Virus record (IMG/VR): IMGVR_UViG_3300021138_001972
Location: 1 to 64,000 of that record
DNA length: 64,000 nt
Strand: one strand, 5' to 3'
From: a virus
The notes under the pieces are model-generated. The model was not told where the DNA came from and did not search any database. It saw nothing but the letters and a program-made list of their open reading frames with translations. The position numbers were made by a program, and so were the translations under genes. This document shows, in pieces, positions 7,399 through 55,506 of this stretch. Positions within the stretch are counted from its first letter, which is position 1, and each line of letters opens with the position of its first letter.

Positions 7399-9755
7399 CG
7401 TCGCGCTGCCCAAATATTATCAACAAGATTTGGATATTTGCGTCCAGCACGCTTGGCACGTGCCTTGGCAACCGCCTTGTCTTTGTCACTGAGATGCTTG
7501 TGTTTTTTCACGGGATTTGGCTTGTCCCAGACATTAACCTCTTCTACGCTAGCCTTTGATGGCTGCAGCGAGAACTTTGGTTTCTTGGCCAACTGTCTGC
7601 CCAGTTTAAGTAGATCAGTTGCCGCAGCACGGGCATTCATGTATTCATTGGTATTACCCTGTTCAGCATGTATCTGGTTAGCTGTACGCACCGCATTGTT
7701 ATAATCCTGCGCTAGCTTGCGTTTTTGTTGCAGCAATTCAATATCTGGAATAACCTCTGGTCGGGAGTCGTTGCGTGGTGCGATGGTGAATTGATTATAA
7801 TTTACTTGCACTATCTTTACATTTGGATCACGCTGAACAAATGGTATCATCTGCAAGAGATTATCACTGACGAACGGGCGTGTGCGACCTGCATATGCAC
7901 TGTTGTAACCATAGAGAGGTCCAATGCGATGCCCGTGAAGCACAGCCAAACCGCCTCTGATTCTTTTAAGGGCTTTTTGCAGCAGTTGGTATGCATATTT
8001 GACATCTATGCCAAGGTCCTTGGCAATATCTGCTAGTTTGTTACCGTCAGCCCAGCGCATGATCAATTCACGTTGCCTAGGAGGTAATAAATTCTGCTGT
8101 TGCCTTACCAACTTGAGCAGCTCTGCGCGATCGCGATCTTCTTCTGGATCAACCGCGATGTCCTGTGCTGTCAGACCCTCGTTCATGTCATCCAGGTGCA
8201 CTGGATCGTCATCATAGGTGAACTGATCGCCAGTCTTGCCAGGACCGTTGGTGTCGCCTTCTGGATCCAGCGGATTCTCCAGATACGTGGGTTGATCCTC
8301 GTCGATCTTGGCACCCAGCTTGTCGTCAAACATACCGCGTATATCGCGATTGGGTTTGCCGTATAGATTGGTAATGATCTGGTCTCGTGTGCTAGGGTCG
8401 GCTGATCTATAAGCCTTGCGTATCTCAGTAGCACTAGTCGCAGGTTCCCCCAGCACTTCAAACTCTTCTGTGGGGGCAGCTATGATGTAGCCATGCTGAT
8501 CCAGAGTCTTTGCTTGATCCATGCCAGGCCACTTCTGAAGATAGCTTAGGCTACCATCTTTTTTGCGGCCCATGCCGTCGCTGTCAAACTTGAAGCGAGG
8601 ATCAGTGTCCATGTCCTTCTCGCCTACAGCAAACAATAACACCGTGTTGTTGGGTACAAACCTGTCGGTAATCTCAGTGGCACTGTAGGGATTCTTGACC
8701 AACTGTATCTTGTCTGCCGGAATGCCTGCTGCTCTGGCCATCCTCAGCTTATCTTCGAAATCAAAAGGGCTCTTGTCTGGATCAGTCTTGTTGCTGGTAG
8801 CTATGTAGACATTTGGACCGAATTCCTTGACAAGCTTGTCATACACAGCCTTGTGACCTCGGTGCAGAGGTTGGAAGCGTCCAGGATATACCACCACTAT
8901 CTGTGGCAATCCGCGGGTGGGTGTCTGCTGATAGGATTTAGCCTTGTCATCTGCTGGTGATAGATTGTCCATGTTAGGACTCTTGGGCTGCACTATCTTG
9001 CCCTGCAGAGGATCATCGTTACCAGCTGCCTCCAGCATCTTGAACTTCATCACTGGGCTGATAGTGTTGACCCAGTCTGGTTCCTGGCTGGGACTGTCAT
9101 TGATCTCGTCTATGGCGAAACCAGCTTCGGCTGCTGCCATCTTGATGGTCTCGATGTCTTGGGGCGTGTAACCTACCACGGCCAAGCTGTTTGACCAAGG
9201 CTGCAGCGCACGATAGGGCACATCACCGTTCTTGATAGCACGTATGCTGGCCATCAGCGTCATGAATCGATACTGCGGATAGTTGTTGCCGCTGTTGAGT
9301 TCTGGTACCACGATCACGGGTGGCAGCGTGGCTTCTATGTTGGGGCTCAGCTTCCTGCTGCCAAATGCTTCCAACAAGCGCCGGCTTTCCAGCATGGGCA
9401 GATGTGCCACTGGACTGACAGTGTTAACCCAGTCTGGTTCGCGACCTTCTGCGTCGTGTATCATATCCACGGTAAAGCCGCTCTGCTTGGCAGCCAGCTT
9501 GACCATCTCTAGCTCTTGAGGAGTGTAGGGAGTGAAGCTGTTCTTGTTGTTCCAAGGCAGCTGTTTGGCATAGGGGTGTTCACCTGCCTCCACGCTGAGA
9601 GCTGCTGCCACTGAGGTCATGAATCTGTAGTTGCCGTAGTAGTTGCTGAAATCCAGTTCAGGTATCACAGCTATGGGAGGCAAGGTATCCCTGGTGCTCC
9701 GGCGCAGCTGACCAATAGGGAAATCCTTGCTCTCGAATAGATCAGCGAGCTTCAT
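7395..9755 (-). CDS. Multidomain protein: tandem repeats, nucleotidyltransferase domain and sigma-region-4-like HTH
   Basis: A 786-residue protein with four recognisable parts. Residues 1-10 (MKLADLFESK) form a short N-terminal motif shared with neighbours. Residues about 25-122 and 144-241 are two copies of one module (PELDFSNYYGNYRFMT / PELNSGNNYPQYRFMT, both ending near PDWVNT.SPV). Residues about 285-460 are a cytidylyltransferase-like domain with YPGRFQPLHRGHK (HxGH-type motif) and SATEIRKAYR. Residues about 540-600 resemble sigma factor region 4, with LLPPRQRELIMRW and a helix-turn-helix around LADIAKDLGIDVKYAYQLL. The C-terminus is Lys-rich. It overlaps both flanking genes. The combination is unusual; the catalytic substrate (NMN, nucleotide or other) is unknown. 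Confidence 0.82.
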   Translation of the reverse strand: MKLADLFESKDFPIGQLRRSTRDTLPPIAVIPELDFSNYYGNYRFMTSVAAALSVEAGEHPYAKQLPWNNKNSFTPYTPQELEMVKLAAKQSGFTVDMIHDAEGREPDWVNTVSPVAHLPMLESRRLLEAFGSRKLSPNIEATLPPVIVVPELNSGNNYPQYRFMTLMASIRAIKNGDVPYRALQPWSNSLAVVGYTPQDIETIKMAAAEAGFAIDEINDSPSQEPDWVNTISPVMKFKMLEAAGNDDPLQGKIVQPKSPNMDNLSPADDKAKSYQQTPTRGLPQIVVVYPGRFQPLHRGHKAVYDKLVKEFGPNVYIATSNKTDPDKSPFDFEDKLRMARAAGIPADKIQLVKNPYSATEITDRFVPNNTVLLFAVGEKDMDTDPRFKFDSDGMGRKKDGSLSYLQKWPGMDQAKTLDQHGYIIAAPTEEFEVLGEPATSATEIRKAYRSADPSTRDQIITNLYGKPNRDIRGMFDDKLGAKIDEDQPTYLENPLDPEGDTNGPGKTGDQFTYDDDPVHLDDMNEGLTAQDIAVDPEEDRDRAELLKLVRQQQNLLPPRQRELIMRWADGNKLADIAKDLGIDVKYAYQLLQKALKRIRGGLAVLHGHRIGPLYGYNSAYAGRTRPFVSDNLLQMIPFVQRDPNVKIVQVNYNQFTIAPRNDSRPEVIPDIELLQQKRKLAQDYNNAVRTANQIHAEQGNTNEYMNARAAATDLLKLGRQLAKKPKFSLQPSKASVEEVNVWDKPNPVKKHKHLSDKDKAVAKARAKRAGRKYPNLVDNIWAARR

Positions 9756-17452: not shown

Positions 17453-17704
17453 TCAATCGCTTAGCAATCTGACCAGTGCCTGCTCGGTTGGCACTCGGAT
17501 GCAGTGTTTGCTGCTGATGTTGGTGTCTTTGACCACGCTTGTACCGCGGCCCCACACCTTCACGGGTGCATGTGATACTGTGACGAATTTGTCAGTGAAT
17601 TTCACTATCCTACCCAGGATCAATCGGTGGCTGCTGGAACCAGGGCTGCGCAGCACCACGTAGTCATCCACTGCCAGCTCGTTGTCAAAGAAATCACACT
17701 TCAT
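17453..17704 (-). CDS. Small beta-rich uncharacterised protein
   Basis: An 83-residue protein starting MKCDFFDNELAVDDYVVL. Alternating hydrophobic residues suggest a small barrel (SH3/KOW-like), with LGRIVKFTDKFVTV in the middle. The start overlaps the ligase stop as ATGA, so it is coupled to ligase expression. No function is assigned. Confidence 0.65.
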   Translation of the reverse strand: MKCDFFDNELAVDDYVVLRSPGSSSHRLILGRIVKFTDKFVTVSHAPVKVWGRGTSVVKDTNISSKHCIRVPTEQALVRLLSD

Positions 17705-19050
17705 GCTGCCTCCGTGACCTTGTCATCTCTGAACTGCATAAACACTGGAAAGCGTAGGCTCCAAGTGTTGCCATCCTGCGCCCGGGTCAACGCATCGCCC
17801 TTGATCTCCACAGTGCGACCTATCACGGTATCCTTGTTGTTCCAAATCTCATCTCTGAGCTCTTCTGTGTAGCCGCCTCCAACCATTACTTCAATGTGCT
17901 TGCCCTGATCCACACCGCGGCACAGCAGTCCCCCCAGCGTGTGTTTAAACTTGCTTTCAGGCTTGCCAGGTTCGATGCTAACAACTTCAAGATCCACGGT
18001 GATGAAGGGTTTGATCTTCATCCACGCATCTGTGCGCTTGGTGCGATAGGTTGCCAGCGGGTCCTTGATCATGATGCCCTCGTAACCTGCAGCCACGGTG
18101 TCGTTGTTGAACTCGCGGAACTGTGCCTGTCCTTCATCAGTGTCCAAGTTGACCATCATCTTGGGGATAACGTATACCCTGTCGCCGCATGCTGCTTGGA
18201 TCATTGGCATCATGCCCACCAACACTTCGTGACGGTCAACCTGCTTGAGCAGGCTCTCGCCAGCACGGAAATCGCTCAGTGGGATGATGTCAAACAGTGC
18301 CAGCCTGGCATCCGAAGTGTCCACATCGTCCTTGCGGTTCAGCTGCTTCATCAGATCTTGGAAGCTGCGGCTGATCATCTCACCGTCCAGCACTATGCTC
18401 TGCTTGAGATCAGGGATCAGCTTGGCTAGATCACCGGTGATGTCACCAAACCTGTCATTGCGGCGACCATCACGCGAATACTGCGTCACGGTCTTGTTGT
18501 CCACGTCAATGATGGTGATGATCCTAACACCGTCCAGCTTGACATCCAGGTATTTGTAGCCAACCATCTTCCGGGGATGGTCATCACCGTTTTTGGCCAG
18601 CTGGCAGCTAAACACAGCAATCTGATAGTCTAGCGCTGCACCGCCAATGTCAGCCAGCACCTTGTTGATAGTAGCATCAGTGATGCCACACTTGAGATCT
18701 TTCAGCAGGATTCGGCGATACCAACCGTTCCAATCTGCTGCGCTGGCAGTGTCACTGGCAGCAGTGATAACATCGCGAGCATAGTTTCCTGTGATCTCTC
18801 GGCGCTGCAGTTTGAGCAGCATGTCACGGAACTTGTCCCAGGTTAGCGTGGCTTTAAAACCTTCTGGATCGTTTGCATCTTCGAACAGAGGCGCCTTGTT
18901 AATATTGAAAACAACCATGGCATCATAGGCCAGCTTTGCACCCTCAAAGAACTCGGTACAGCCTGCGGCCCAAGCATCACGTAGGATCCGTTCCTTATCC
19001 AAACGACCCGAGTTTGCTTCTAGCTGTGCGACCACTTCATTGGGCTTCAT
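17701..19050 (-). CDS. ATP-dependent DNA ligase (T4-type)
   Basis: Seals 5'-phosphate/3'-OH nicks in duplex DNA using ATP. The 449-residue protein has motif I YLDVKLDGVR with the adenylated Lys at about residue 171, motif III-like VLDGEMIS, motif IV YEGIMIKDP, motif V WMKIKP and the C-terminal OB-fold motif RTVEIKGDAL. Length and the N-terminal domain fit phage T4 gp30-type ligases. AGGAG precedes the ATG at 19050 and a sigma70-type promoter lies just upstream. A role in replication, recombination and UvsE-initiated repair follows from the family. Confidence 0.93.
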   Translation of the reverse strand: MKPNEVVAQLEANSGRLDKERILRDAWAAGCTEFFEGAKLAYDAMVVFNINKAPLFEDANDPEGFKATLTWDKFRDMLLKLQRREITGNYARDVITAASDTASAADWNGWYRRILLKDLKCGITDATINKVLADIGGAALDYQIAVFSCQLAKNGDDHPRKMVGYKYLDVKLDGVRIITIIDVDNKTVTQYSRDGRRNDRFGDITGDLAKLIPDLKQSIVLDGEMISRSFQDLMKQLNRKDDVDTSDARLALFDIIPLSDFRAGESLLKQVDRHEVLVGMMPMIQAACGDRVYVIPKMMVNLDTDEGQAQFREFNNDTVAAGYEGIMIKDPLATYRTKRTDAWMKIKPFITVDLEVVSIEPGKPESKFKHTLGGLLCRGVDQGKHIEVMVGGGYTEELRDEIWNNKDTVIGRTVEIKGDALTRAQDGNTWSLRFPVFMQFRDDKVTEAA

Positions 19051-19156: not shown

Positions 19157-20248
19157 TTAGAAGAGATCCACGATCTCCCAGGGCAGTCCGGCCTTGCCAA
19201 AATGTCCATAGTTGGTTGTGCTGCTGTAGATCGGGCGGAACAGATTGAATCGGTTGATGATGCCCAGTGGTGTGAGATCAACATTGTCCTTGATCCATGC
19301 TGTGAGTGCACGGCTGTCACCATTGCTCTCCACATAGAAACTCATGGGCTGAGCCAGACCGATGGCATAGCTGATTTGCACGGTGGCCCAATCGGCACGC
19401 CCGCTGGCCACGATGTTCTTGGCGAGATAACGCATCATATATGCAGCAGACCTATCAACCTTGGTTGGGTCTTTGCCACTAAATGCACCGCCACCGTGCG
19501 GCGCACTACCGCCGTAGGTATCAACAATGATCTTGCGACCAGTCAGACCAGTATCGCCATCTGGACCACCAATAACAAAACGTCCAGTGGGATTGATATG
19601 GAATTCTGTGCCTGTGTCAACCAAACGATCAGGCAGCACACTGCGTATAAGTTGTTCTACTCGTGTACGAACGGTGTAAATGTCTGTGCCTTCACTGTGT
19701 TGGGTAGAGCAAACTACCTTGTCAATACGAAATGGTTTGCTATCATCGTTGTACTCGACAGTGATCTGACTCTTGGCATCTGGTCCAAGCCAATCACTAC
19801 CACTCTTGCGATGTTCCGTCAGTTTTTTGACAACTTCGTGACTGTAATGGATAGCACTGGGCATGAAATTATCTGTCTCATTGGTAGCATAACCAAACAT
19901 CAAGCCTTGATCGCCAGCGCCAAACGTATCGGTACCTAGCGCAATGTCAGCACTTTGTCCATGCATTAGATTGAGGATTTCCACTGTGCGCCAACTAAAA
20001 CCACTTTGTTCGTAGCCAATATCACGAATGGTATTGATCACAGTTGCCTCAACCACATGGCGGTCAAGTTCACCTTTATATTCACCTGCAACAACTACCT
20101 TATTGGTAGTGACAAGTGTCTCGCAAGCACAGCGATAGGATTTATCTTGCGGTGCCATCATCAAATCCAGAACCGCATCACTGATTGCATCTGCTACCTT
20201 GTCTGGATGACCTTCTGATACGGATTCGCTGGTGAATAGATAGGACAT
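19157..20248 (-). CDS. metK: S-adenosylmethionine synthetase
   Basis: Makes SAM from methionine and ATP. The 363-residue protein begins MSYLFTSESVSEGHPDKVAD (ATP and methionine site) and contains TFGAGDQGLMFGYA, IGGPDGDTGLTGRKIIVD and HGGGAFSGKDPTKVDRSAAY, the family's hallmark motifs. It is slightly shorter than typical bacterial MetK (about 380-400). The ATG at 20248 is chosen because the canonical N-terminus starts there and AGGAG lies upstream; a longer frame back to 20311 has no support. SAM is consumed by the eight radical SAM genes and the methyltransferases in the window, so this gene probably feeds them. Inactive variants are unlikely given intact motifs. Confidence 0.96.
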   Translation of the reverse strand: MSYLFTSESVSEGHPDKVADAISDAVLDLMMAPQDKSYRCACETLVTTNKVVVAGEYKGELDRHVVEATVINTIRDIGYEQSGFSWRTVEILNLMHGQSADIALGTDTFGAGDQGLMFGYATNETDNFMPSAIHYSHEVVKKLTEHRKSGSDWLGPDAKSQITVEYNDDSKPFRIDKVVCSTQHSEGTDIYTVRTRVEQLIRSVLPDRLVDTGTEFHINPTGRFVIGGPDGDTGLTGRKIIVDTYGGSAPHGGGAFSGKDPTKVDRSAAYMMRYLAKNIVASGRADWATVQISYAIGLAQPMSFYVESNGDSRALTAWIKDNVDLTPLGIINRFNLFRPIYSSTTNYGHFGKAGLPWEIVDLF

Positions 20249-20268
20249 GCTGTATAGCTCCTGTTGTG

Positions 20269-20393: not shown

Positions 20394-21392
20394 TTATGGC
20401 TTGATCACGTACCATATATTGGCTCGCAGGAATAATGTGACACCCAGCTGCTCTGCCAATCTATCTGCTTCGCCCTTAACATCTATCCAGGTATTGCTGG
20501 TGTAGTCATGTCCTGCGATGATGCCTCCGCTCTTGACTTTGGGCACCCAGAATGCTAGATTATCTCTGAGCTGTGGATTTTCATGTGCGCTGTCCTCAAA
20601 AATAAAGTCCACGGGTTCAGTCCACCAGCCCAGATCGTATGGGCTATCAAACGCCAGCAATCTTGCTGCCGGATAGGGTTTCAAAATCTGGCTCGCATAG
20701 TCAAAGGTGCGAGCATGTTCATCTATACCATGCTGCTGCCTTATCCAGCTCAGTGCCCATTCGCTGCAATCATCTCCGTATTTCCAACCATTGTCAATGC
20801 AGTACAATCGCTTGATTCTGGGAGCATTCTGCATGATGCTGAGTGCGCTGCCGCCCAGCCGCGAGCCGATCTCTACTGCTATAGCATTCGCTGGCAGCTG
20901 CTGTGCCAAGCTGATCAGAGCATCTTGATCGTTATCCCAGAGCATGCTGGGATATCGCGAGTTGCCAACTGGTTTTCTTTCATAGCTTATTGGTTCTGGC
21001 ATGGGAGGAACACCGCTGACGCAGTGCTGCAGATCTAGCCTGCCTTCCAGCACGTCCACAGCCACAGCATACGGGATCTCTAGCTGCGAAATGCTGGGAT
21101 CGTATGATGTATCTATGCGAGCAAATCCAACTTCTAACACAGTGCCATTGGTGTGCAAGGTAGCCCAGGCTGTTGATCCGCCTGGTAGCTGAGGTTGCAC
21201 GGGTGCTGCTGCAGGCAGCGTGTTAATGGCCACACTGAGGCAGTGCTGCAGATCTATGTTGCCATTGCGCACAGCAAACGCTATATCGTCAGGTATCTCT
21301 ACCTGTGTGATGTTCTTGCTTACTAGATGTTCTGTCTTGTTAAATCCAACTGCCAGCACAGTACCGTCAGTGAGCAATGTCACCCATGCCAT
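20394..21392 (-). CDS. Class I SAM-dependent methyltransferase with duplicated N-terminal module
   Basis: A 332-residue protein. Residues about 2-55 and 75-130 are two copies of one module (DGTVLAVGFN...DLQHCLS and NGTVLEVGFA...DLQHCVS). Residues about 150-332 form a Rossmann methyltransferase: VEIGSRLGGSALSIM is motif I, RLYCIDNGW holds the acidic residue for SAM ribose, and FIFEDSAHENPQLRDN and GGIIAGHDY follow, as in the Methyltransf_24 type. Its start overlaps the stop of the bilin reductase gene by 13 nt, so it is in the bilin operon. Whether it methylates a bilin, sugar or another target is unknown. Confidence 0.85.
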   Translation of the reverse strand: MAWVTLLTDGTVLAVGFNKTEHLVSKNITQVEIPDDIAFAVRNGNIDLQHCLSVAINTLPAAAPVQPQLPGGSTAWATLHTNGTVLEVGFARIDTSYDPSISQLEIPYAVAVDVLEGRLDLQHCVSGVPPMPEPISYERKPVGNSRYPSMLWDNDQDALISLAQQLPANAIAVEIGSRLGGSALSIMQNAPRIKRLYCIDNGWKYGDDCSEWALSWIRQQHGIDEHARTFDYASQILKPYPAARLLAFDSPYDLGWWTEPVDFIFEDSAHENPQLRDNLAFWVPKVKSGGIIAGHDYTSNTWIDVKGEADRLAEQLGVTLFLRANIWYVIKP

Positions 21393-22042
21393 GGTAATAT
21401 CCCCTGTTTATCAATGTCGGCTGCAGTAGGGAACAGCACCGTGGTCACGAACTGCTCGGCTAATTCATCGCCCAGGAGGTTCTTTATTGCTCGCAGGGTG
21501 TGTTCATTCTTGCGCTGTTGCATGCAGTAATTATCCTGCGCTGCTACTATAGATTCCTGCTGTGGGCCACTGTCAAATCTCATCAATCCTTGCAGATAGC
21601 CAGCTAGGCATCTCACAGCAGCATCACCAATCTCTGGCAGCTGCTCTGGCGTGGGTCGACAGGCAACCCAGTGCTCGCTGAATATATCGCCCCACTCTGG
21701 ACGATCTCTGTTAACCAAGCCAGCAATGGTGTTGAAAGGTACTGTGGGCTGCACCGTGGGGCTGAGGTCCCAGAACAACCCGGTTATCTTGCTTTCTCCC
21801 GCTATGGCATCGAATCCAAATATTGGACTGGGATCGTTGTATGCAGGAAAGACACAGCAGTGGACTACCATGAACCGATCACGGTTGAATATCTCTACAT
21901 GCGCCATGCGGAACGTGGAATGCGACCAACGATGGTTAAGCCATCCGTAATCTTTGGTTGGAATGGGCACACATTGTTTTAATTCTGTTATGGTTGCACA
22001 GAAGCGCTGTGCAAGTTCATCCAAATAGGTTATACAGTTCAT
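21380..22042 (-). CDS. pcyX: Ferredoxin-dependent bilin reductase (PcyA/PcyX-like)
   Basis: Reduces biliverdin IXalpha with electrons from ferredoxin to a phycobilin. The signature block reads VVHCCVFPAYNDPSPIFGFD followed by AIAGESKITGLFWDLSP. The His and Asp in it are 17 residues apart, the same spacing as the catalytic His88 and Asp105 of PcyA, and a Glu 11 residues before the His could match Glu76. The product (phycocyanobilin or phycoerythrobilin) cannot be told from sequence; phage PcyX enzymes are known to give phycoerythrobilin. The ATG at 22042 gives 220 residues, close to family length, and overlaps the heme oxygenase gene by 26 nt. Biliverdin comes from that neighbour. Symbol is a best guess. 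Confidence 0.85.
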   Translation of the reverse strand: MNCITYLDELAQRFCATITELKQCVPIPTKDYGWLNHRWSHSTFRMAHVEIFNRDRFMVVHCCVFPAYNDPSPIFGFDAIAGESKITGLFWDLSPTVQPTVPFNTIAGLVNRDRPEWGDIFSEHWVACRPTPEQLPEIGDAAVRCLAGYLQGLMRFDSGPQQESIVAAQDNYCMQQRKNEHTLRAIKNLLGDELAEQFVTTVLFPTAADIDKQGILPWHG

Positions 22043-22526
22043 CGTATACCCGTATGGTCCATTCAAACGCTGTGTTGGCTTCTGCGGCACTGACATTGCC
22101 AAGGTTGGCTCTCACGTAGTCTATGCAGCCCTTGAGGTCATTGAACAGCAGATGCGTGTGCTGTCCAGGCAGTCGCCTGCCAATCAGCTGCCCGCCATGC
22201 ATGTTGCCTAGATAGTGCACATAGATGTGAGCCCAGCGAGCATCATCATCCAGTGTCTCGAGGTAGCGTGTGTAGTACACTGTGCTCAGCGTGAGACCGT
22301 GTGTGGTGCCACCTAGCGCATCCAGATCAGCCTGTACCAAGCTGGCACGCAGCACTTCTGGTTTGGCGATCAAACCTGTGCGTTCCAGTTCAGTGTAGAT
22401 TGGCAGCATGTTGTACAGCATGGCAGCATATTGTTCGATGCGCATGTCGCCGCCGATCATCATCTGTGACCAGCGAGTCTTTTCTGCAGCTTGGTGATTG
22501 TCTCTGACTGCTTCTCTGAGATCCAT
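22017..22526 (-). CDS. hemO: Heme oxygenase
   Basis: Opens heme to biliverdin, CO and Fe2+ using reduced ferredoxin and O2. The 169-residue protein has the proximal His in LREAVRDNHQAAEKT (His11) and the distal-helix YLGNMHGGQLIGRRL, matching the conserved GG(Q) helix of the family. It is somewhat shorter than cyanobacterial HO1 (about 240), close to bacterial HemO. Strong GGAGG lies before the ATG at 22526. The start is 2 nt after the RyR-domain gene and the 3' end overlaps the bilin reductase gene, so the pair forms a heme-to-phycobilin module. Released iron and CO may matter too. Confidence 0.93.
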   Translation of the reverse strand: MDLREAVRDNHQAAEKTRWSQMMIGGDMRIEQYAAMLYNMLPIYTELERTGLIAKPEVLRASLVQADLDALGGTTHGLTLSTVYYTRYLETLDDDARWAHIYVHYLGNMHGGQLIGRRLPGQHTHLLFNDLKGCIDYVRANLGNVSAAEANTAFEWTIRVYDELYNLFG

Positions 22527-22528
22527 GA

Positions 22529-23104
22529 TTACCTCCGTGTGATCTGGAGGTCCAATCCTTCCAGCACATTCATCAGTGTATGGAATCTTTCACGTTCTGT
22601 CACTCTGTATGATTCTGGGAGGTTCTCCCAGGGCTGCAGCATGGGATGCTTGCGGTTCTTGCCGTCCAGCTTGTGAGCAAAGCTCCAGCCCTCGTTGACC
22701 TTGGTAGCATGCCATGTGTTGTGGTACTGCTTGGCAGCTGCTTCTGCGATCTCAGCCAGCAAATCTGCCTGCTGTGTTTCAACTCTGCTCTCTGCCACAG
22801 CTCGCTGTGTCCAGTTGATCACAAAGTCGCCATCTGGGTAAGCATCGCTCCAACCCTGTGCTATGGCATCTGCTTCTGATTCTTCCAGATCGCGTCCCAG
22901 TGGCACTATGTAGTGATAACCAGTGCTGCCGTGCTCACACCATAGCTTGCTGTACATACTCTCACGTCCATTCATCAGCTGAGCTGCAGTTGTTATGCCA
23001 GGCGGGCCGTGATCGCGAACCGTGCGTGCCCAGAGTCCTGCTGTGCCCTTGGGCAAGCGTGCTGCGGTCTTGACTTCTATGCTGTGTTTGGCTGTGTGAC
23101 GCAT
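22529..23104 (-). CDS. RyR-domain-like protein
   Basis: A 191-residue protein, first in the bilin operon. The C-terminal 65 residues (HNTWHATKVNEGWSFAHKLD, then HPMLQPWENLPESYRVTERE) match the RyR repeat pattern, a small domain named from ryanodine receptors that also occurs in phages and bacteria and may bind nucleotide-derived ligands. The N-terminal half (MRHTAKHSIEVKTAARLPKG) is not recognised. The ATG at 23104 is chosen because a TAAATA box ends 4 nt before it. A regulatory or sensing role is possible but not shown. Confidence 0.75.
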   Translation of the reverse strand: MRHTAKHSIEVKTAARLPKGTAGLWARTVRDHGPPGITTAAQLMNGRESMYSKLWCEHGSTGYHYIVPLGRDLEESEADAIAQGWSDAYPDGDFVINWTQRAVAESRVETQQADLLAEIAEAAAKQYHNTWHATKVNEGWSFAHKLDGKNRKHPMLQPWENLPESYRVTERERFHTLMNVLEGLDLQITRR

Positions 23105-23107
23105 GTG

Positions 23108-23115
23108 ATATTTAT
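23108..23115 (-). promoter_or_regulatory. T4-type late promoter box for the bilin operon
   Basis: Minus strand CATAAATATCAC directly followed by the ATG at 23104; the TAAATA core ends 4 nt before the start. It would drive the RyR, hemO, pcyX and methyltransferase genes. Confidence 0.55.
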
Positions 23116-23133
23116 GGTCTGCGGTACCACATA

Positions 23134-23593: not shown

Positions 23594-24085
23594 ATGGGAT
23601 TCGGATTTAGGATAGCACTGCTCAACCTCATACTGCTGCTGTGTAGCCTTGGTGCCTTCTATTGGTATTACAACGATGTACAAGCCAGGGTACAGGGACT
23701 GATGGATGAGAAAGCCAGGCTTACCGTACAGGTAGCCGAGCAGAAGCAGGCCATAGACACCCTGCAGGCACATGCAGCTGCACAAGCACAGCAGGTAACT
23801 GAACTACAGCAAGGTCTCAACGAAGCCACGCAGGCACGCAGGGATCTGGAGAACAAGTTCAACAACCGCGACATTGCACAGTGGGGTAGACAGGATGCCC
23901 AGCAGCTGGAAGATCACATGAACACAGCCACTCAGCGAGTGTTCCAAGATCTCGAGACTACCACTGGTGCCAAGCCTAGTAATAAACCGCTGCCTGCACC
24001 CAGCAAGGCGCAGGTCAAGAACGCACCAAAGAAACCGGGCACAGTAGAGCCCTTCAAGCAATTGGATGGAGTCAATGCTCAATAA
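23594..24085 (+). CDS. Probable inner-membrane spanin (Rz-like)
   Basis: A 163-residue protein with one N-terminal membrane anchor (about residues 7-25, ALLNLILLLCSLGAFYWYY) followed by a long coiled coil rich in Gln, Ala and Glu (residues about 28-95) and a Pro/Lys-rich tail. This is the layout of an i-spanin, which spans the periplasm and joins an outer-membrane lipoprotein to fuse the membranes at the last step of lysis. The next gene, overlapping by 20 nt, is the lipoprotein partner and a holin follows, which supports the call. Confidence 0.75.
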   Translation: MGFGFRIALLNLILLLCSLGAFYWYYNDVQARVQGLMDEKARLTVQVAEQKQAIDTLQAHAAAQAQQVTELQQGLNEATQARRDLENKFNNRDIAQWGRQDAQQLEDHMNTATQRVFQDLETTTGAKPSNKPLPAPSKAQVKNAPKKPGTVEPFKQLDGVNAQ

Positions 24086-26916: not shown

Positions 26917-28119
26917 ATGAACAAGATATATCTACTATACCATAGCCTATTTCAAGGCGTGCCAAGTTTAAACTGGCTACCCGCTCATATCGAGATGGAT
27001 GGTACTGAATTACACGAGGGACTCTGTCACGATCCTCTGTTTGAGTTCAAGGACATATCTAAAGTCGCTTCGCAAGATAACTGGTTATATGAGCTAAACT
27101 ATTTTTTCACACCTCAGGATTTTACAGATGACTGTACCATACTAGATAGAATAGTACATGATCAAAAATTAATGGAAGGTTTGCATCAAGGCAAGGGCAA
27201 AGTCTTGGTCAATCTCATGCATGAAGGATATTTTCCAGAACTCGTTGAACAGATGATTGGATTCTTACGCAGCAAAAACATACCGGATAATGCAGTGATA
27301 TGCGCGTCTGGCGCTGCCAATGCGGCAGACATATTCCCTGCACGAGGTATGATATACCAGACTATTTCAACTAGATATTTTGAAAGCAGAAGCACTAGAT
27401 GGATAAAGTGGGGAAATTTCTCTAGACAGCTTCGATCAAATGTTTCACGTAGATTTATCTGTTTCAATCGGCGTTTTCGATCACACAGATTACAGTTATT
27501 GGCATATCTACATGAAGCAGATGTGTTAGACCAATTCTATATAAGTTTTGGTCGCAGCGTGGAGGGTCTGGATGCCAAGCAGAGCGCAAGAGATTTTTGT
27601 AGAGATTTACCAGATGTGGAAAAAGTGATTAAGAACATTGATGCACTGTATGATAGATTGCCTTTCATCTTGGACAACAGTGTGTTAGATTACAATCTAG
27701 TAGATGAACACTTCAACAAAAACGTATTGCAGCTATATGCAGATAGCGGTATCAGTGTCATTTCAGAGACTCTGTTCCACACAGATTCCATCTTCCACTC
27801 AGAAAAAACCTATCATCCCATGCGCTATTGCCAACCTTTCATAATGGTCAATGCATCAGGCAGCTTAGCAACATTGCGCAGGGACGGTTATCGCACGTTT
27901 GGCGATTTCTGGGATGAAAGCTACGACGATATCAAGGATCACCATGCACGCATGCAGGCTATCATACAGCTGATTAAAGAAATAGCAGCTTGGTCAGATT
28001 CAAAATTTAAACAGTTTTTGATAGATAGCAGAGAGATCTGTTTGCACAATCTTCGCCTGCTTGAATCATGCCACGATCGCCTTGATTATATTGCTGATAT
28101 TTCTAAGATATTTGATTAA
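26917..28119 (+). CDS. Glycosyltransferase-like protein, paralogue 1 of 3
   Basis: A 400-residue protein that shares a C-terminal signature with the genes at 31246 and 34471: SVISETLFHTDSIFHSEKTY, then PFIMVNASGSLATLRRDGYR and FGDFWDESYDD. In exostosin- and fucosyltransferase-like GT-B proteins a similar SEK...G.P segment binds the nucleotide sugar, so a glycosyltransferase is the best guess. FICFNRRFRSHR corresponds to the NCLNR-HR segment of the paralogues. It is the only member on the plus strand and its codons look richer in A and T than its neighbours, so it may have a separate origin. It overlaps the convergent radical SAM gene by 4 nt. Confidence 0.72.
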   Translation: MNKIYLLYHSLFQGVPSLNWLPAHIEMDGTELHEGLCHDPLFEFKDISKVASQDNWLYELNYFFTPQDFTDDCTILDRIVHDQKLMEGLHQGKGKVLVNLMHEGYFPELVEQMIGFLRSKNIPDNAVICASGAANAADIFPARGMIYQTISTRYFESRSTRWIKWGNFSRQLRSNVSRRFICFNRRFRSHRLQLLAYLHEADVLDQFYISFGRSVEGLDAKQSARDFCRDLPDVEKVIKNIDALYDRLPFILDNSVLDYNLVDEHFNKNVLQLYADSGISVISETLFHTDSIFHSEKTYHPMRYCQPFIMVNASGSLATLRRDGYRTFGDFWDESYDDIKDHHARMQAIIQLIKEIAAWSDSKFKQFLIDSREICLHNLRLLESCHDRLDYIADISKIFD

Positions 28120-30059
28120 ACTAATTTCAGCTGCGCTTTGCCAAAGTTTCGGCGCCTTGCGTAGTATATGTTCTGCAGAAACACCTGCAGAGACATGGTA
28201 CGATCTTCTGGAAAATCCACCACGTATGCATCATATCTATTAGACAGCGGTTGATCTGATATGACATGATCCAAGAGATTGCTGTCAGTATGCAACTGCA
28301 TAGGGTACAGTGTGATACGGTCATATCGCACCACATAGGCCTCGGTAATCTTTCTCAGATCCAGCAAGGGCCTGATCATGTTTCCAGTGGGCAGAGCAGG
28401 CTCAAGCAGGTGTCCATATGTTTCTTCAACGTACATCTCCACAGCTGAGCAATACCTATGGTAGCTGCGGTCAGCATGCATGCGTAGATTGCTAAGATGT
28501 ATGAGATTCCATCCATGTATCCTAACCCCAGCTATTGGATCAACTGAGATGCTGCCAGTGGTCATCCAGCTGCGATATGCGTCCATAACAAGATCTCGTT
28601 CACTGCGCCACCAGGCTGCATTCTGTTCAAGCCATGTTTGGAATCCAATGTAGAATTCCTCGTAGCTTACAGCGCATGCCTTGCGCAAGAACCTACTATA
28701 CCATTGGCTGATGCCATTGATGTGCCAGGTGTTGATGAACCAGCTGAACTCTTGGCAAGACAGCATGTTGTCAAGAGGCAGGTCTCGAGTGCTGGTCACT
28801 ACTTCCACACCTTCTAATATAGCATCGCCCTCATCGTTGCCACTAAGATAATCATATACGGTAATGCTTGTGATGCTATTGGACTCACGCTGTGTGAGAT
28901 TCATCTCAGCATTCTCCAACAGCTGTGCTTGGAAGAATTCTATGCCGCTGTGTTGATTGATCTCCAACAGGCCCCAGACATTTCTACGCCAACTGTCTAC
29001 AGTCTCACCAGGTAAGCCCAGTATCAGTTCGGTGTTGACCGTGATGCCTTCGCGTTGGCACAGATCAAACACCTCGTTCAGCCGATTGATCTCTAGGTTC
29101 TTGCGCTTTATCTCACCGAGCACATGGTCGTCTAGGCTCTGCACGCTCAGAGTTAACCCATTGTTGAACCCGCGAGCAGTCAGCTTCTTGGCCAGCTTGA
29201 CCACATCTGCCTTTTGGTTCTTGGCCCAACTGAGCCCCATGCGACGCGGATAGCCGAATCGATCCTGCGTCCCTATGACTTTCTCCACTATTAGATTATC
29301 GCGTTCGATGAACATGCCAAAGTTGGCATCTGTGATGCTCATCCAATCGCACTCATGCTCGCCCATCCACTCTATCTCTGCAAACACCCGCTTGAGATCA
29401 AACTGCTTGACCTTGTTGTAGGTGAGGCTGCCCCAGTCACAGAAGGTGCACTGATAAGGGCAACCTCTGTTGGTCTCCAACGTGGCATTCCAAGTTACCG
29501 TGGGATTGTCAGCCATGATGCCATCAAACACGCCTGTGGTATAGGGGCTGGGGATCTGATCCAATCGGTCTATGCGCACTGCTGTGCCAGTGTCTACCAC
29601 ACGACCTTGGTCGTTCAGCAGCAGGCCTCTGACCGTGGGCAAAGCACCATGGTGCAGCAGATCAGCAAACGCTACCTCACCCTCCTTCTTGACCACTGCG
29701 TCAATGAAAGGATAGTGTTGGAATATGTCTGTGCTTTCCACGGGAGGTTCTGGTCCACCAAACACGATCTGGCAACGAGGATTATAGTCCTTGATCCTGC
29801 GAGCCAACTGGTAGTTGTAGCTTTTGTTCCAGATGTAGGTGCTGAAACCTATTGTATCACAGTCTGCCAGCTGCTTGTACACAGATTCTATGGGATCGCG
29901 TCGCCACACCAGCTGGTCCAGATGCCAGCGTTCGGTGATCAGGCTCATCCGGCTGGCGTAGGCCCACAGCACGCCTGCGCTGTAAGGTAGGTAGTAGGCA
30001 TTTAACTCGCGCGGACCCTGTGCGAAATTTGGCTGCACAAGGTTGAGCCTGCGTGTCAT
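28116..30059 (-). CDS. Cobalamin-binding-type radical SAM protein, copy A
   Basis: A 647-residue class B-like radical SAM enzyme. The first 130 residues are a Rossmann B12-binding-like domain (DTIGFSTYIWNKSYNYQLAR, IVFGGPEPPVEST). C200, C204 and C207 in NRGCPYQCTFCDWGS bind the radical SAM cluster. The C-terminal 250 residues are family-specific. Such enzymes often methylate unreactive carbons or rearrange rings in natural products and lipids. It is a paralogue of 32558-34474 (both contain LPYSAG near the N-terminus and GCPY.CTFCDWGS). The start overlaps the UDP-sugar dehydrogenase stop as ATGA. Substrate unknown; a sugar or glycan-linked target is suggested by neighbours. Confidence 0.88.
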   Translation of the reverse strand: MTRRLNLVQPNFAQGPRELNAYYLPYSAGVLWAYASRMSLITERWHLDQLVWRRDPIESVYKQLADCDTIGFSTYIWNKSYNYQLARRIKDYNPRCQIVFGGPEPPVESTDIFQHYPFIDAVVKKEGEVAFADLLHHGALPTVRGLLLNDQGRVVDTGTAVRIDRLDQIPSPYTTGVFDGIMADNPTVTWNATLETNRGCPYQCTFCDWGSLTYNKVKQFDLKRVFAEIEWMGEHECDWMSITDANFGMFIERDNLIVEKVIGTQDRFGYPRRMGLSWAKNQKADVVKLAKKLTARGFNNGLTLSVQSLDDHVLGEIKRKNLEINRLNEVFDLCQREGITVNTELILGLPGETVDSWRRNVWGLLEINQHSGIEFFQAQLLENAEMNLTQRESNSITSITVYDYLSGNDEGDAILEGVEVVTSTRDLPLDNMLSCQEFSWFINTWHINGISQWYSRFLRKACAVSYEEFYIGFQTWLEQNAAWWRSERDLVMDAYRSWMTTGSISVDPIAGVRIHGWNLIHLSNLRMHADRSYHRYCSAVEMYVEETYGHLLEPALPTGNMIRPLLDLRKITEAYVVRYDRITLYPMQLHTDSNLLDHVISDQPLSNRYDAYVVDFPEDRTMSLQVFLQNIYYARRRNFGKAQLKLV

Positions 30060-31222
30060 GCGCTGGGAATTTCTCTGGTGTTGCCATATGGTATGTAGTC
30101 AATGCCCTCGGGCACCTTGGAGCTCCGCCACGGATCTACTACCACGCTGCCCTGTGCCATCTGAGATAGCTGAGCTGTGTAATATCCCTGATGCGCCAGC
30201 AGATAGGCTGATGGTTCTGACGCTATCTCATCATACGCAACCGTTGCTCCCAGCTGTTCACAGTAGTATCCTACCAGCAGGCTGTAGCTGCCATCCGTAT
30301 ATGATACTCCGGGTTTGAAGCTCTTGCCCAGTATGATCACTGGCAGCTTATGGCTGGCCAATTCTCGAGCCAGATTCTCTGCTTGCACTTCGCGGGCACG
30401 CATGATGCTGTCAAACAGATCATAACCTAACTTGAGCTTTTCAGCCATGTGGCGCAGTGCTATGTTGTCTCTGGGATGGCAGGGGCCGCCGTCTCCCATG
30501 CCTGGTTTCATGTAGGCAGGTCCTGTGATGCGATAGCTGCTCTCGCTCAGTGCCCTGGCTACCACGTCCACATCCATGTTGCCGATGCGCTCTGCCACGT
30601 CCTGTATCATGTTGACCAAGCTCAGCTTGGCTGAGATGAAGGTGTTGTAGAATATCTTGGTGCTTTCCATCTCTTCCCAGGTACCCGTGACCATGCGAGG
30701 TGAGTTCTGCATCAGTGGTTTGTAGAACTGCATCAGCTGTTCCACTGCCATGTCGACACGCCCAGTAGCGTTGCCTATCATCACCATCTCGGGATTGACC
30801 ATGTCGTGGGCCACAGTGCCCATGGCTATGAGATAGGGATTATAGATCAAGCTGGCCTTGGTCAGATGCTTGGCCAGCTGTCGTCGAACCGTGCCGGGCA
30901 GCACCGTGCTGATCAGCACCACCGTCTTGCCATCAGCGTCCAGCTTATCCAGCTGATCCAACACACTAATAACCGTGCTGTAATCGAAATCCTTGTTGGG
31001 CAAGTGGCTGGTTGGTGCGCTGCCGTCGTACTGTGGATCATGCGGTGTCTGCACTGCTATGAATATTATGTCACCGTGTGCGACTATCTGTTCCAGCGTG
31101 CCCTGCCTTACCATCTGCGTGCTCACTGGTCGCACATCCATGCCCATGACATCATGTACCCGTGCCATGGCCTCTGCCACCGGCAAGCCCAGCTTGCCTA
31201 AACCTATAACGCTTGCTTTCAT
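30056..31222 (-). CDS. UDP-glucose/GDP-mannose dehydrogenase family protein
   Basis: Family members oxidise a nucleotide sugar twice with NAD+ to the uronic acid. The 388-residue protein has the N-terminal Rossmann start MKASVIGLGKLGLPVAEAMA, FIAVQTPHD, ISTVLPGTVR, the central helix with KIFYNTFISAKLSLVNMI and the catalytic Cys in GDGGPCHPRDNIALR (about residue 248). The C-terminal domain keeps LGKSFKPGVSYTDGS and VVVDPWR. All key motifs are present, so it is probably active. It is slightly shorter than the usual 400-450. AGAGGA precedes the ATG. It would supply a uronic acid precursor for the neighbouring glycosyltransferase-like proteins. Confidence 0.9.
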   Translation of the reverse strand: MKASVIGLGKLGLPVAEAMARVHDVMGMDVRPVSTQMVRQGTLEQIVAHGDIIFIAVQTPHDPQYDGSAPTSHLPNKDFDYSTVISVLDQLDKLDADGKTVVLISTVLPGTVRRQLAKHLTKASLIYNPYLIAMGTVAHDMVNPEMVMIGNATGRVDMAVEQLMQFYKPLMQNSPRMVTGTWEEMESTKIFYNTFISAKLSLVNMIQDVAERIGNMDVDVVARALSESSYRITGPAYMKPGMGDGGPCHPRDNIALRHMAEKLKLGYDLFDSIMRAREVQAENLARELASHKLPVIILGKSFKPGVSYTDGSYSLLVGYYCEQLGATVAYDEIASEPSAYLLAHQGYYTAQLSQMAQGSVVVDPWRSSKVPEGIDYIPYGNTREIPSA

Positions 31223-31245
31223 ATGATGGTCCTCTTGATTTTATA

Positions 31246-32457
31246 TTATGCCACGAATTCTTGCCAGATCGCAAGTAGTCGTTGATAGTCCTTGCTGTTT
31301 TCCCAGTGCTGCCATGCTAATCTATGGTTGTGTCGCAGCGCAGGTTCTGCGCGGGCAAACCATGCAGGCAGGTCCTGTATCTCATTGAGCTTGGCTATCT
31401 GCTCTACGATGGCATCGATTCTCGCCACAGTGTCCAAATGGTCATAGCTCTCATCCCAGAGCATGGGAAAAGTCTGGAAGCCCAGCTCGCGCAATCTGTG
31501 CAGAGTGCCAGGGTTGCCCAGGACCATGAATGGGCTGCTGCACAGCATGGGTTTGAACACCTTCTCGCCTATCAGCAGCTGATCATTGCCCACATAGGTC
31601 TCGGTTATCACGCTAAACCAGCTGCGCAGATAGATATCTTCGTTGAGATCATTGAAATGGTTAACGGTGAAATCAGTCTTGTCTACTGTCATGGGCAGCA
31701 CACTCTGCACGCGGCGCACTAGGCTATCGTCCAACAGCGTGCCATCTGGCAGCGCAGGCACGTCAGTGAAGCTGTCCATGCTGATCAAGCCCTGCGGCAC
31801 CAAACCCTGCTCAAACAGCTTGAGGAACAGCCAACGGCGATGCGGATGCAGCACCCTGTTAAGACAGTTGTAGAGCTTGGTATCGCTGTGTTTGGCCTGC
31901 AGCCATTGATCATAGCTCAGGGGTACCGTGCCACGGCGTCCAAGCATGTCAGTGATAGCATGCAGATTGAACAGGGTACTGAGCACCTGCATCTGTGGTT
32001 CTACGCCATTGAAATCACACCAAGAAATATGAGATTTTTCCGCTAAATGATCGCTGGTCATGTATATGATATTCTTGGCTGCTACGGCCCAGCGTGACGC
32101 TGTAGCATAGAACCAACTCCACAGATCAGGATCAGCGTTGCCTTCCTGGCTCTGATCAAATATCAGCAGCACCCTGCCGCGCTGTGCATCCCGCAGCACT
32201 GCCTCGGGCAGATAGCTCAGCGGGTCTTGGGCCCACTGAGCAGGTCTATGGAAGCAGCCAATGGGAAACACATAGTGCCTTGGCCGATTGGCCACGCTGT
32301 AAGCGGGCCAGTCTGTGGTAAGCTGTGCATGCACCCAAGAATCATGCAAGGGCCTAATGCCTTCGGTGGCCCACTGGTTACAGGCCAGCAGATTGCGACG
32401 ATTGTCAAGGTCTTCATAGACCATGCTGGGTGCTCTCATCTGCAGCAGCTGTGGCAT
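31246..32457 (-). CDS. Glycosyltransferase-like protein, paralogue 2 of 3
   Basis: A 403-residue protein with the signature shared by this trio: YNCLNRVLHPHRRWLFLKLF in the middle, then SVITETYVGNDQLLIGEKVF, PFMVLGNPGTLHRLRELGFQ and PMLWDESYDHL. The GEK...P...G.PG pattern resembles the nucleotide-sugar site of GT-B enzymes. It is part of the long minus-strand run; the start follows the 36-residue gene by 3 nt with AGGT before the ATG. Acceptor and donor are unknown. Confidence 0.75.
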   Translation of the reverse strand: MPQLLQMRAPSMVYEDLDNRRNLLACNQWATEGIRPLHDSWVHAQLTTDWPAYSVANRPRHYVFPIGCFHRPAQWAQDPLSYLPEAVLRDAQRGRVLLIFDQSQEGNADPDLWSWFYATASRWAVAAKNIIYMTSDHLAEKSHISWCDFNGVEPQMQVLSTLFNLHAITDMLGRRGTVPLSYDQWLQAKHSDTKLYNCLNRVLHPHRRWLFLKLFEQGLVPQGLISMDSFTDVPALPDGTLLDDSLVRRVQSVLPMTVDKTDFTVNHFNDLNEDIYLRSWFSVITETYVGNDQLLIGEKVFKPMLCSSPFMVLGNPGTLHRLRELGFQTFPMLWDESYDHLDTVARIDAIVEQIAKLNEIQDLPAWFARAEPALRHNHRLAWQHWENSKDYQRLLAIWQEFVA

Positions 32458-32460
32458 GTA

Positions 32461-32571
32461 TTACCTATAGATGAACGGATCGCGCGATCGCAATGCTGCC
32501 AAACGCTTCTTATAGGCACGGCGTTGCTTAAAACGATGCCAAGGTGTTAACAGCCAATTAATCAACCACAT
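32461..32571 (-). CDS. Conserved basic small protein (36 residues)
   Basis: Reads MWLINWLLTPWHRFKQRRAY, then KKRLAALRSRDPFIYR. An amphipathic or membrane-touching Trp-rich start followed by a basic helix and a DPFIY ending is a pattern I know from small proteins of T4-like marine phages. AGAGGAAG lies upstream of the ATG. It overlaps the stop of the B12-type radical SAM gene by 14 nt, so it is translated with the cluster. Function unknown. Confidence 0.7.
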   Translation of the reverse strand: MWLINWLLTPWHRFKQRRAYKKRLAALRSRDPFIYR

Positions 32572-34474
32572 GTGTAATCTTCCTCTTGTGTAATACCTGT
32601 TTCCTACCATACCAAACTATCTGCCGCGCCCAGGTTTCAGCGCTGCCGGGATACTCTGCCGCTGTAAATGCCACGGTTACCGGCCTGTGGATCACTGGAC
32701 CTGATCTGCACTGCAGCGCAGCAGCTATCATGCTGGGTATGTCGTGGCTGTAGCTGCTGCTATCATCTGCAGCATGCGCGGGCCCTAGTATCCACTGCTG
32801 TTGGAAATCAATGGCATCTGCGATGTGAGCATCTGTCATCCAATCTCGCAGGAACGGGACCAGCTCAGCGTAGAACTGCTCTGCCTGGGCTCTGAGTTGC
32901 AGGAACGTGAGCTCTTCCACTGGCCAATTGATGTCGCCAAACTGTGGATCGCTCTGCCCCAGATCCTCAGCGCCAGTCAGCATGAGATCCAGCGTTTGAT
33001 CAATCCTTGCGATCTGTGCGCCCAGCAGCGTAGGCTGTCCCTGATGAGCTCGCAGCAAGCGCAGATAGAATTCCACGTAGCTGTGATTAACCCGCCAGTA
33101 GTCCATGGCCAGATACTGGGTGAGGCCCAGGCAGTGCAGGCTCTGCACAATCCAGCTGATCATGTAGGCCTGTCGCCAATCTGCATGAGGCATGGACTCA
33201 GTGGCTATGACTATGTCGTTGTACTCGGCAATCTCATCAGGACGTGTGCTGCTGTGATTGTCCATCAGAGGCACGCGCTGCTTGACGATGCCCTGCGCGG
33301 CCATGTGAGCAGCGTCAGCCATTTCTGAGTTGCGCAGTACCATGCAGGTGTAGATCACTAGATTGTCATGCTGCCCCCCCTGCAGCAGAGTCTCTATGCC
33401 TGCTGTGTAGCTGGCCAGTGTCTCGCCAGGCAGGCCTATGATCAGCTCTGTGTAGGTAGGTATACCCTGCTCGCGATAGCGTTCAACCAAGGGACGGAAG
33501 TCGTCGATGGCTATGTTCTTGCGCTTGATGGTTTCCAGCGTGTGCGGATCCATGCTCTGCATGCTCAGCGTCACACCCTTGCTCATGCCAGCGTCATTCA
33601 GCATGCGGCTGATCTCAAACACCTTGTGATCGCTCTTCTTGGCATAGCTCGCTCTAAACTTCTGAGGATAGCCCAGGCGCTGCTTGGTATCAACCATGGC
33701 TGTGGTGAGCTCTATGTCGCGAGCATAGATGCCATAGTTGGCGTCGCAGTTGTAGAGCAGATCTATGTGATTGTGGCCAAACCAATCCAGCTCTTCTATC
33801 AATCGCGGCTGATCAAACTGCCGTATCTTGGTATACACAGCCGATCCCCAATCACAGAAGGTACAGCTGTAGGGACATCCTCTGTGGGTCTCCTGGCTGG
33901 CGTGCCAACTGATGCTGGGATTTGCTGCGATCAGCTGGTCAAACACCCCAGTCATGTAAGGGCTGGGTATCACTGATAGATCTGTTAGACGTGGCCGCGA
34001 TTCTGTCTTGATGGTGCGGCCTTTGCGCCTATAGCTTATGCCTTGAACCTTGGCAGGGTCTGAGCGATCTCGGATGCAGCGCAGCAGTTCCGCGAAAGTG
34101 ACTTCACCCTCGTCGTGTACCAAGAAATCTATGTCTGGGTTGTCTTCGAAAAACCCTGTGCTGTCACTGGGCACCTCGGGACCTCCACATATCACGCGGC
34201 AACCAGGATAGCGCATCTTGATCAGTGCTATGAGATCCATGTTGTAGTTCCAGTTCCACAGATAGCAGCTGACTGCCAGCACGTCTGGATCTTGTATCCT
34301 GTTGAATGCCGTGCTCAGAGACTCTCGTAGAAACAGTAGATCACACAGCTCGTAGGACTCTGCGATGTCGGCCTGGCTGTGGGCATAGCTCCACAGCATG
34401 CCTGCACTGTAAGGCAAGAACGCCTGACCACCGAAGCTGTTGTTGATCTGCGCTAGGTAAACACGTTTTATCAA
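32558..34474 (-). CDS. Cobalamin-binding-type radical SAM protein, copy B
   Basis: A 638-residue paralogue of 28116-30059. The N-terminal B12-like domain contains LAVSCYLWNWNYNMDLIALI and RVICGGPEVPSDSTGF; the radical SAM cluster motif is HRGCPYSCTFCDWGSAVY. TELIIGLPGET is the later SAM-site strand. The start is set at a TTG that overlaps the upstream stop (TTGA), because the protein then aligns with the N-terminus of copy A (LIKRVYLAQINN against MTRRLNLVQPNF). A longer frame from another TTG lies inside the upstream gene. Two diverged copies in one operon suggest two successive C-methylation or rearrangement steps, which is inference. Confidence 0.85.
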   Translation of the reverse strand: MIKRVYLAQINNSFGGQAFLPYSAGMLWSYAHSQADIAESYELCDLLFLRESLSTAFNRIQDPDVLAVSCYLWNWNYNMDLIALIKMRYPGCRVICGGPEVPSDSTGFFEDNPDIDFLVHDEGEVTFAELLRCIRDRSDPAKVQGISYRRKGRTIKTESRPRLTDLSVIPSPYMTGVFDQLIAANPSISWHASQETHRGCPYSCTFCDWGSAVYTKIRQFDQPRLIEELDWFGHNHIDLLYNCDANYGIYARDIELTTAMVDTKQRLGYPQKFRASYAKKSDHKVFEISRMLNDAGMSKGVTLSMQSMDPHTLETIKRKNIAIDDFRPLVERYREQGIPTYTELIIGLPGETLASYTAGIETLLQGGQHDNLVIYTCMVLRNSEMADAAHMAAQGIVKQRVPLMDNHSSTRPDEIAEYNDIVIATESMPHADWRQAYMISWIVQSLHCLGLTQYLAMDYWRVNHSYVEFYLRLLRAHQGQPTLLGAQIARIDQTLDLMLTGAEDLGQSDPQFGDINWPVEELTFLQLRAQAEQFYAELVPFLRDWMTDAHIADAIDFQQQWILGPAHAADDSSSYSHDIPSMIAAALQCRSGPVIHRPVTVAFTAAEYPGSAETWARQIVWYGRKQVLHKRKITHVVD

Positions 34475-42041: not shown

Positions 42042-42070
42042 TTGACAGCACTAGATCCACGTGCTAGTTT
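42042..42070 (+). promoter_or_regulatory. Sigma70-type promoter for the sigma factor gene
   Basis: Perfect TTGACA (42042-42047), 17-bp spacer, TAGTTT (42065-42070). The -35 is ideal, the -10 weak. It lies 62 bp before the ATG at 42132. Confidence 0.5.
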
Positions 42071-42131
42071 ACCGCTAGCTGAGGTATATCACATCAGGTT
42101 TGGTATGAGTATGACAAGGGACAACACACAT

Positions 42132-55155: not shown

Positions 55156-55506
55156 ATGACATACGTAGTTACAGATAATTGCATCAAGTGCAAATACATG
55201 GATTGTGTCTCTGTCTGCCCTTAGCTAGTAGATTGTTTCTACGAGGGCGACAACATGCTGGTGATCAATCCCAGCGAGTGCATAGATTGCGGTGTTTGCG
55301 AACCAGAATGCCCTGCTGATGCCATATTTCCTGACACCAACAAGAAGCAGGATCTCACGTCATGGTTGAAGTTAAATGATGACTACAGCAAGGCTTGGCC
55401 GCGAGTTACCAGGGCACGCCCACACGATCCGCTAGCCAAGGAATATGACGGCGAACCAGACAAGTTTTGGAAATACTTTTCCAAGGCCCCTGGACAGGGT
55501 GGTTGA
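55156..55506 (+). pseudogene. fdxA: FdxA-type 7Fe-8S ferredoxin gene interrupted by an in-frame TAG (recoded or broken)
   Basis: The frame reads [22 protein letters not shown], then TAG-CTA, then VDCFYEG and [20 protein letters not shown], giving a near-perfect FdxA once the six bases 55222-55227 are ignored: the family has CPVDCFYEG at this point. All cluster Cys are present on both sides. FdxA ferredoxins carry a 3Fe-4S and a 4Fe-4S cluster and pass low-potential electrons. Either the gene is broken, or ribosomes pass the TAG, or the downstream part is translated from the ATG at 55255, which has GAGGG upstream and would keep the CxxCxxCxxxC motif (84 codons). Possible partners are the heme oxygenase, bilin reductase and radical SAM enzymes. 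A GTG at 55147 is an alternative start. Confidence 0.85.

Follow-up and report, generated by a model that had tools for sequence, protein, structure and literature searches.

A heme oxygenase and PcyA-type bilin reductase gene pair between RyR-domain and DNA ligase genes in a probable jumbo phage

The stretch of viral DNA analysed here (the window) spans positions 1 to 64,000 of a virus record of 87,334 bases and carries genes for a heme oxygenase (HO) and a ferredoxin-dependent bilin reductase (FDBR) directly behind a gene for an RyR-domain protein. With little more than even confidence, we read the locus as a late-expressed HO and PcyA-type FDBR set between two resident phage genes, RyR and a DNA ligase, with the RyR protein serving a separate function and the adjoining methyltransferase being unrelated to the pair. 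The record is probably a fragment of a larger genome, and the phage a myophage of probable jumbo size. Phage bilin genes outside the cyanophages have no accepted purpose, and the locus extends this unexplained habit of aquatic phages to probable jumbo phages. The reductase sequence predicts phycocyanobilin (PCB) rather than phycoerythrobilin (PEB), the oxygenase belongs to a natural set that has lost the textbook Asp140, and the pair adjoins a gene from a family recently shown to neutralise NAD-based immunity.

Organisation of the locus and its late box

Four tightly packed genes run along the minus strand from 23104 to 20394, as an earlier note on this DNA had described, and all four score above the curated Pfam cut-offs. 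The RyR-domain protein gene comes first (22529..23104; RyR, 5.4e-14), followed by HO (22017..22526; 169 aa; Heme_oxygenase, 5.2e-12), FDBR (21380..22042, start ATG at 22042; 220 aa; Fe_bilin_red, 3.3e-19) and a class I methyltransferase (20394..21392; Methyltransf_24, 7.6e-11). Two bases separate the end of the RyR gene from the start of HO, while HO overlaps FDBR by 26 bases and FDBR overlaps the methyltransferase by 13. Further along the same strand lie a gene for S-adenosylmethionine (SAM) synthetase (19157..20251; Pfam S-AdoMet_synt N, M and C) and, at the end of the locus, one for an ATP-dependent DNA ligase (17701..19050; DNA_ligase_A_M, 4e-20). Comparison with a 74%-identical relative, L009, indicates purifying selection, with dN/dS values of 0.10 for RyR, 0.17 for HO and 0.06 for FDBR, the last obtained with synonymous sites near saturation; on these values we rejected HO and FDBR as pseudogenes.

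A late-promoter-like box (CATAAATAT; 23108..23116, minus strand), recognised by its sequence and conserved position, adjoins the RyR start codon. The earlier proposal of a single late box stands as regards the box itself, but not as an exact T4 late motif (TATAAATA), which occurs only twice in the whole window. TAAATA lies 2–6 bases 5' of an ATG seven times in the window against 1.7 expected, a count reached in 0 of 200 simulations, and it directly precedes the RyR start both in the window and in 12 of the 12 relatives compared. Since the hexamer is enriched and conserved before RyR, the idea of a late operon is sound, and we infer late timing for the genes that follow. Upstream of the RyR ATG there is only the box (CATAAATATCAC), so near to the start codon that the RyR transcript would have little or no leader; the downstream genes of the operon have Shine–Dalgarno-like stretches, such as GGAGG 5' of HO. 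Boxes of the ATAAATAT type are found 2–6 bases 5' of starts at 2427, 17434, 23104 and 46394 on the minus strand and at 23594 and 52404 on the plus strand; being commoner than chance, they possibly mark leaderless late genes.

The bilin reductase has a PcyA-like triad

The best PDB match of the FDBR is PcyX (5owg, 3e-23), followed by PcyA (2g18, 3e-21). In a tree of 63 rows, which includes 47 phage sequences of the window's type and contains neither pre-PcyA nor CB_2 sequences, all 47 form one clade (100/100) that lies apart from cyanobacterial PcyA and the cyanophage FDBRs. The window enzyme belongs to an 18-row subclade (95/85) and PcyX of Pelagibacter phage Mosig to a separate 24-row clade (100/100). 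The earlier note had proposed placing the reductase in such a tree, and it falls firmly among the FDBRs, not with cyanobacterial PcyA but in a phage-only clade beside PcyX. Cyanophage PcyA and the other cyanophage FDBRs share a Pfam family with the window FDBR, yet in the tree they sit with the cyanobacterial PcyA enzymes. A scan of genome contigs with the phage motifs found no bacterial relative, and a second genome-contig scan found no bacterial donor, its best 80 matches being cyanobacterial PcyA only.

In the alignment, Glu50, His61 and Asp78 of the window FDBR correspond to the PcyA triad Glu76, His88 and Asp105 (Synechocystis numbering), of which PcyX and pre-PcyA lack Glu76 (PMC10151467). 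The PcyX-specific Asp (Asp55) is likewise missing from the window enzyme, which has Glu in that column. Asp55 would thus occupy the Glu76 column, a reading of our own alignment that PMC11480375 does not state. Mosig and the majority of its clade have Asp there, and the window, like most members of its subclade, keeps the PcyA triad; Gln replaces Glu76 in a side branch (L012–L015 and L020). The FDBR of the freshwater phage CB_2 is without the PcyX Asp55 and makes PCB (PMC11480375). Given the PcyA triad (PMC10151467) and the CB_2 precedent, PCB is the predicted product of the window FDBR, and on triad and tree together we rejected a PcyX-type enzyme making PEB. The previous description of the gene as 'PcyA/PcyX-like' was right in pointing to a bilin reductase, but the PcyX label itself does not fit, since the triad is that of PcyA.

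The RyR-domain protein looks like a resident of the phage lineage

The AlphaFold2 (AF2) model of the RyR protein shows two domains, an N-terminal ferredoxin-like fold and a C-terminal RyR/Repeat12 domain, and Foldseek matches the RyR half to the B. thetaiotaomicron RyR structure 3nrt. RyR-domain proteins of phages defeat Thoeris by cleaving or sequestering 2'/3'cADPR (PMC13232231, a preprint). The window protein resembles these anti-Thoeris proteins (RyDEP) in its RyR (Repeat12) domain with His75 and Trp78, and differs in having an extra N-terminal domain and Glu for Asp117. His100 is also present, so that all three of these RyDEP residues are found in the window RyR (PF02026), whereas in most of its relatives the His100 column holds Ser. 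At the Asp117 column L010, another relative, has Asp, and in the window protein the catalytic dyad His75/Asp117 of the glycosidase type is incomplete. Binding of cADPR is not assured, because Asp117 is replaced by Glu and, in most relatives, His100 by Ser. Sponge-type members of the RyDEP family require no catalysis.

An RyR-seeded scan, which added four contigs absent from the FDBR scan (including contigs of 518 and 453 kb), gave 21 full-length relatives, and in 20 of these HO and FDBR come directly after RyR; the count includes L298 (the contig of L020), where one ORF is inserted between RyR and HO, on the opposite strand (L020:8545-9384, minus strand). The order RyR–HO–FDBR is found in about 13 distinct contig lineages, with scans from both ends in agreement, and this recurrence argues for a real three-gene block. 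L310 has RyR directly before a ligase gene without HO–FDBR. Two isolated jumbo phages, Agrobacterium phage Atu_ph07 and Sinorhizobium phage Phosso, share the two-domain RyR, there directly before a small gene whose product matches the N-terminal region of the window ligase (BLASTP 4e-12 and 2e-16); unlike in the window, no HO–FDBR pair lies between, and FDBR and HO queries had no match in either record. The next gene of Atu_ph07 encodes an NAD-dependent ligase, whereas the window ligase is ATP-dependent. Because RyR stands before the ligase gene without HO–FDBR in Atu_ph07 and Phosso, it looks like a resident gene of the phage lineage, and the simplest history would be an RyR–ligase neighbourhood into which HO–FDBR was later inserted (or from which it was lost in the others). 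Several RyR-domain ORFs occur on one phage contig at L315 and L316, and in L012–L014 and L020 an inserted ORF breaks up the ligase gene, whose translation shows an intein-like junction.

We tentatively propose that binding or cleavage of cADPR-type defence signals is the most likely activity of the RyR protein and that, although its gene heads the same late transcript, the protein probably has a job separate from that of the bilin enzymes. The main rival is a linked function, in which RyR, HO and FDBR would form one module and RyR would sense or carry an adenine nucleotide or a bilin and regulate or deliver the product. The 20-of-21 co-occurrence across some 13 lineages, the single late box common to the genes, the strong purifying selection on RyR and the partly altered RyDEP residues of its clade are all in keeping with such a module, as is a weak likeness of the RyR N-terminal half to PII-type sensors, which we rejected as a fold assignment because the Foldseek match is not significant (E ~0.01). 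Set against this are the two-domain RyR before the ligase without HO–FDBR in Atu_ph07, Phosso and L310, and the many phage HO–FDBR pairs without RyR that an FDBR-seeded census returned. We consider a single module unlikely, if still deserving of attention, and a separate anti-defence role the better bet. Two points count against this preference: the co-occurrence is tighter than a bystander needs, and late promoters do not usually drive anti-defence genes. The suggestion in the earlier note that RyR and the methyltransferase may point to light or redox sensing is unsupported, as RyR also occurs without HO and FDBR and its family is reported to act against Thoeris (PMC13232231).

The heme oxygenase has lost its distal Asp

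The AF2 model of HO (pLDDT 95.9) has heme oxygenases as all of its best Foldseek matches, with a TM-score of 0.85 to HmuO, and also matches rat, human and cyanobacterial HO-1. The structure-based HO alignment, which is without the Mosig sequence, shows no variation at the proximal His (His11) or at the GG of the distal helix. The distal pair Arg136/Asp140 (human HO-1 numbering) is replaced by His104/Asn108 in the window, and L009 and L010 have the same His/Asn pair. Most other RyR-linked HOs have His, Asn or Phe at the 136 column with Trp or Tyr at the 140 column, where Pro is also seen among relatives and L016 keeps Asp; PcyX-type phage HOs keep the distal Asp as well. Asp140 is thus lost in most HOs of the window's clade even though selection is purifying. 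By parsimony the Asp state changed three times or more, and on the tree, with only two independent pairs, no association of Asp140 loss with RyR linkage is demonstrable.

The consequences for activity can be judged from characterised enzymes. The D140H variant of human HO-1 has significantly lower activity, as cited in PMC7948506, and plant HO-1 naturally has His in place of Asp140, yet works (PMC7948506). On these grounds activity of the window HO is plausible but not certain, and the loss of Asp counts against our reading in that the enzyme could be weak or altered. Loss of both Asp140 and Arg136 from nearly all RyR-linked HOs, in a short protein of 169 aa, might even suggest a heme- or bilin-binding protein that is not a working oxygenase, with the FDBR drawing on host biliverdin. 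This we regard as rather improbable, since the proximal His and distal-helix GG are invariant, the model has the HO fold, selection is purifying and plant HO-1 functions without Asp140.

Possible electron donor and host

HO and FDBR families both require reduced ferredoxin or a similar donor. A possible one is encoded in the window itself by a 7Fe-type ferredoxin gene (55156..55506, plus strand; identified by sequence and translation), and a ferredoxin is the inferred partner of HO and FDBR. The gene is interrupted by an in-frame TAG, which counts against our reading. The TAG directly follows the Cys-Pro of the first cluster motif, within a 6-base insertion (GTC TGC CCT TAG C[CT][AT] GTN GAY TGY). 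It stands at the same place in the L010 ferredoxin (G002:57419-57762), there in a 5-base insertion, and in about ten distinct phage ferredoxins overall (including L093–L099 and L276–L290), all with the protein downstream conserved; the ferredoxin gene of the L009 phage is intact. The conserved position and downstream protein suggest programmed readthrough or ribosome hopping over the TAG. The ferredoxin type, together with an RyR–ligase neighbourhood like that of Atu_ph07 and Phosso, hints at an alphaproteobacterial host.

Comparison with known phage bilin cassettes and use of the pigment

The HO–FDBR pair is an already known phage cassette. Freshwater phage CB_2, compared here by its description and outside the tree, resembles the window in carrying HO and FDBR (vHemO and vPcyA) in a non-cyanobacterial phage, the FDBR without the PcyX-specific Asp, and its HO makes biliverdin IX-alpha (PMC11480375). 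CB_2 also carries ALA synthase; the window differs in this, and from the hemO–pcyA/X–valaS three-gene cassette, as a search with TIGR01821 found no ALA synthase in the 87-kb record or in 19 other phage records, possibly fragments, and we rejected an ALA synthase supply as in CB_2. Mosig (MT647606; L006) has overlapping HO and FDBR genes in the same order. Its FDBR is 31% identical to that of the window and has Asp for Glu76, as PcyX does; its HO, unlike the window's, keeps Arg136/Asp140; and its neighbours are 2OG-Fe(II) oxygenases and a ferrochelatase, with no RyR.

In the mechanism we propose, HO would open heme to biliverdin IX-alpha, iron and CO, and the FDBR is predicted to carry out a ferredoxin-driven four-electron reduction of biliverdin to PCB, a blue bilin. 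The likeliest benefit would be iron from heme breakdown late in infection, with the reductase serving for disposal of biliverdin or for production of a bilin effector in small quantity. Release of iron is the least demanding benefit, and the benefit as a whole is a guess. The earlier observation that photosystem or phycobilisome genes are lacking agrees with our searches, as 20 phage records, for the most part probable fragments, gave no match to PHY or Phycobilisome; on this basis we set aside the idea that the phage itself senses light or uses the pigment as an antenna. The same note's heme-to-phycobilin operon is upheld for the HO–FDBR pair and for a late-type operon, but not for RyR and the methyltransferase as functional partners. 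A bolder version of the single module, in which a rebuilt HO without Asp140, the PcyA-type FDBR and a nucleotide-binding RyR make a bilin for a novel use, such as a virion pigment or redox buffer or signalling linked to NAD-based defence, strikes us as a long shot.

The methyltransferase is a lineage-specific neighbour

The methyltransferase has two copies of a repeat of about 50 aa N-terminal to its Methyltransf_24 domain. In the census of relatives, L002 (same species) and L009 alone have a homologue next to the cassette. In the L009 protein the methyltransferase domain is doubled and the N-terminal repeats are missing, and the L009 locus lacks the SAM synthetase gene. L010 has a different Methyltransf_24 gene 5' of RyR, and the interval between FDBR and ligase in other relatives holds von Willebrand-type genes or lacks any long ORF. 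Judged by this distribution, the methyltransferase is a lineage-specific neighbour rather than a conserved partner of the bilin genes, and together with the SAM synthetase it would have joined the locus recently in this lineage, with no connection to the bilin. Recurrence of the order, which the earlier note had put forward as a check, extends to RyR–HO–FDBR but for the methyltransferase stops at L002 and L009; with RyR also found without HO–FDBR, a functional unit of four genes is not supported. Joint synthesis of a methylated bilin, to which the overlap with FDBR and the SAM synthetase gene next door might point, can be dismissed as highly improbable, the methyltransferase being missing from all but the two closest relatives and the L009 version being a different, duplicated-domain protein with no adjacent SAM synthetase.

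Other features of the record

A run of ORFs with radical-SAM features occupies 28116-41751 on the minus strand, one of them B12-binding and radical SAM by Pfam and the others judged by eye from their cysteine motifs; these are possible users of the SAM synthetase and the ferredoxin. The plus-strand gene at 42042-43610 encodes a full-length phage sigma-70 factor with regions 1.2, non-essential, 2, 3 and 4, and a 786-aa protein (7395-9755, minus strand) combines a cytidylyltransferase-like domain with a weak match to sigma region 4 that falls below the curated cut-off. Towards the end of the record, at about 68.6–87.3 kb (L007 and L008), more than 20 tRNA genes form a dense array interspersed with short ORFs.
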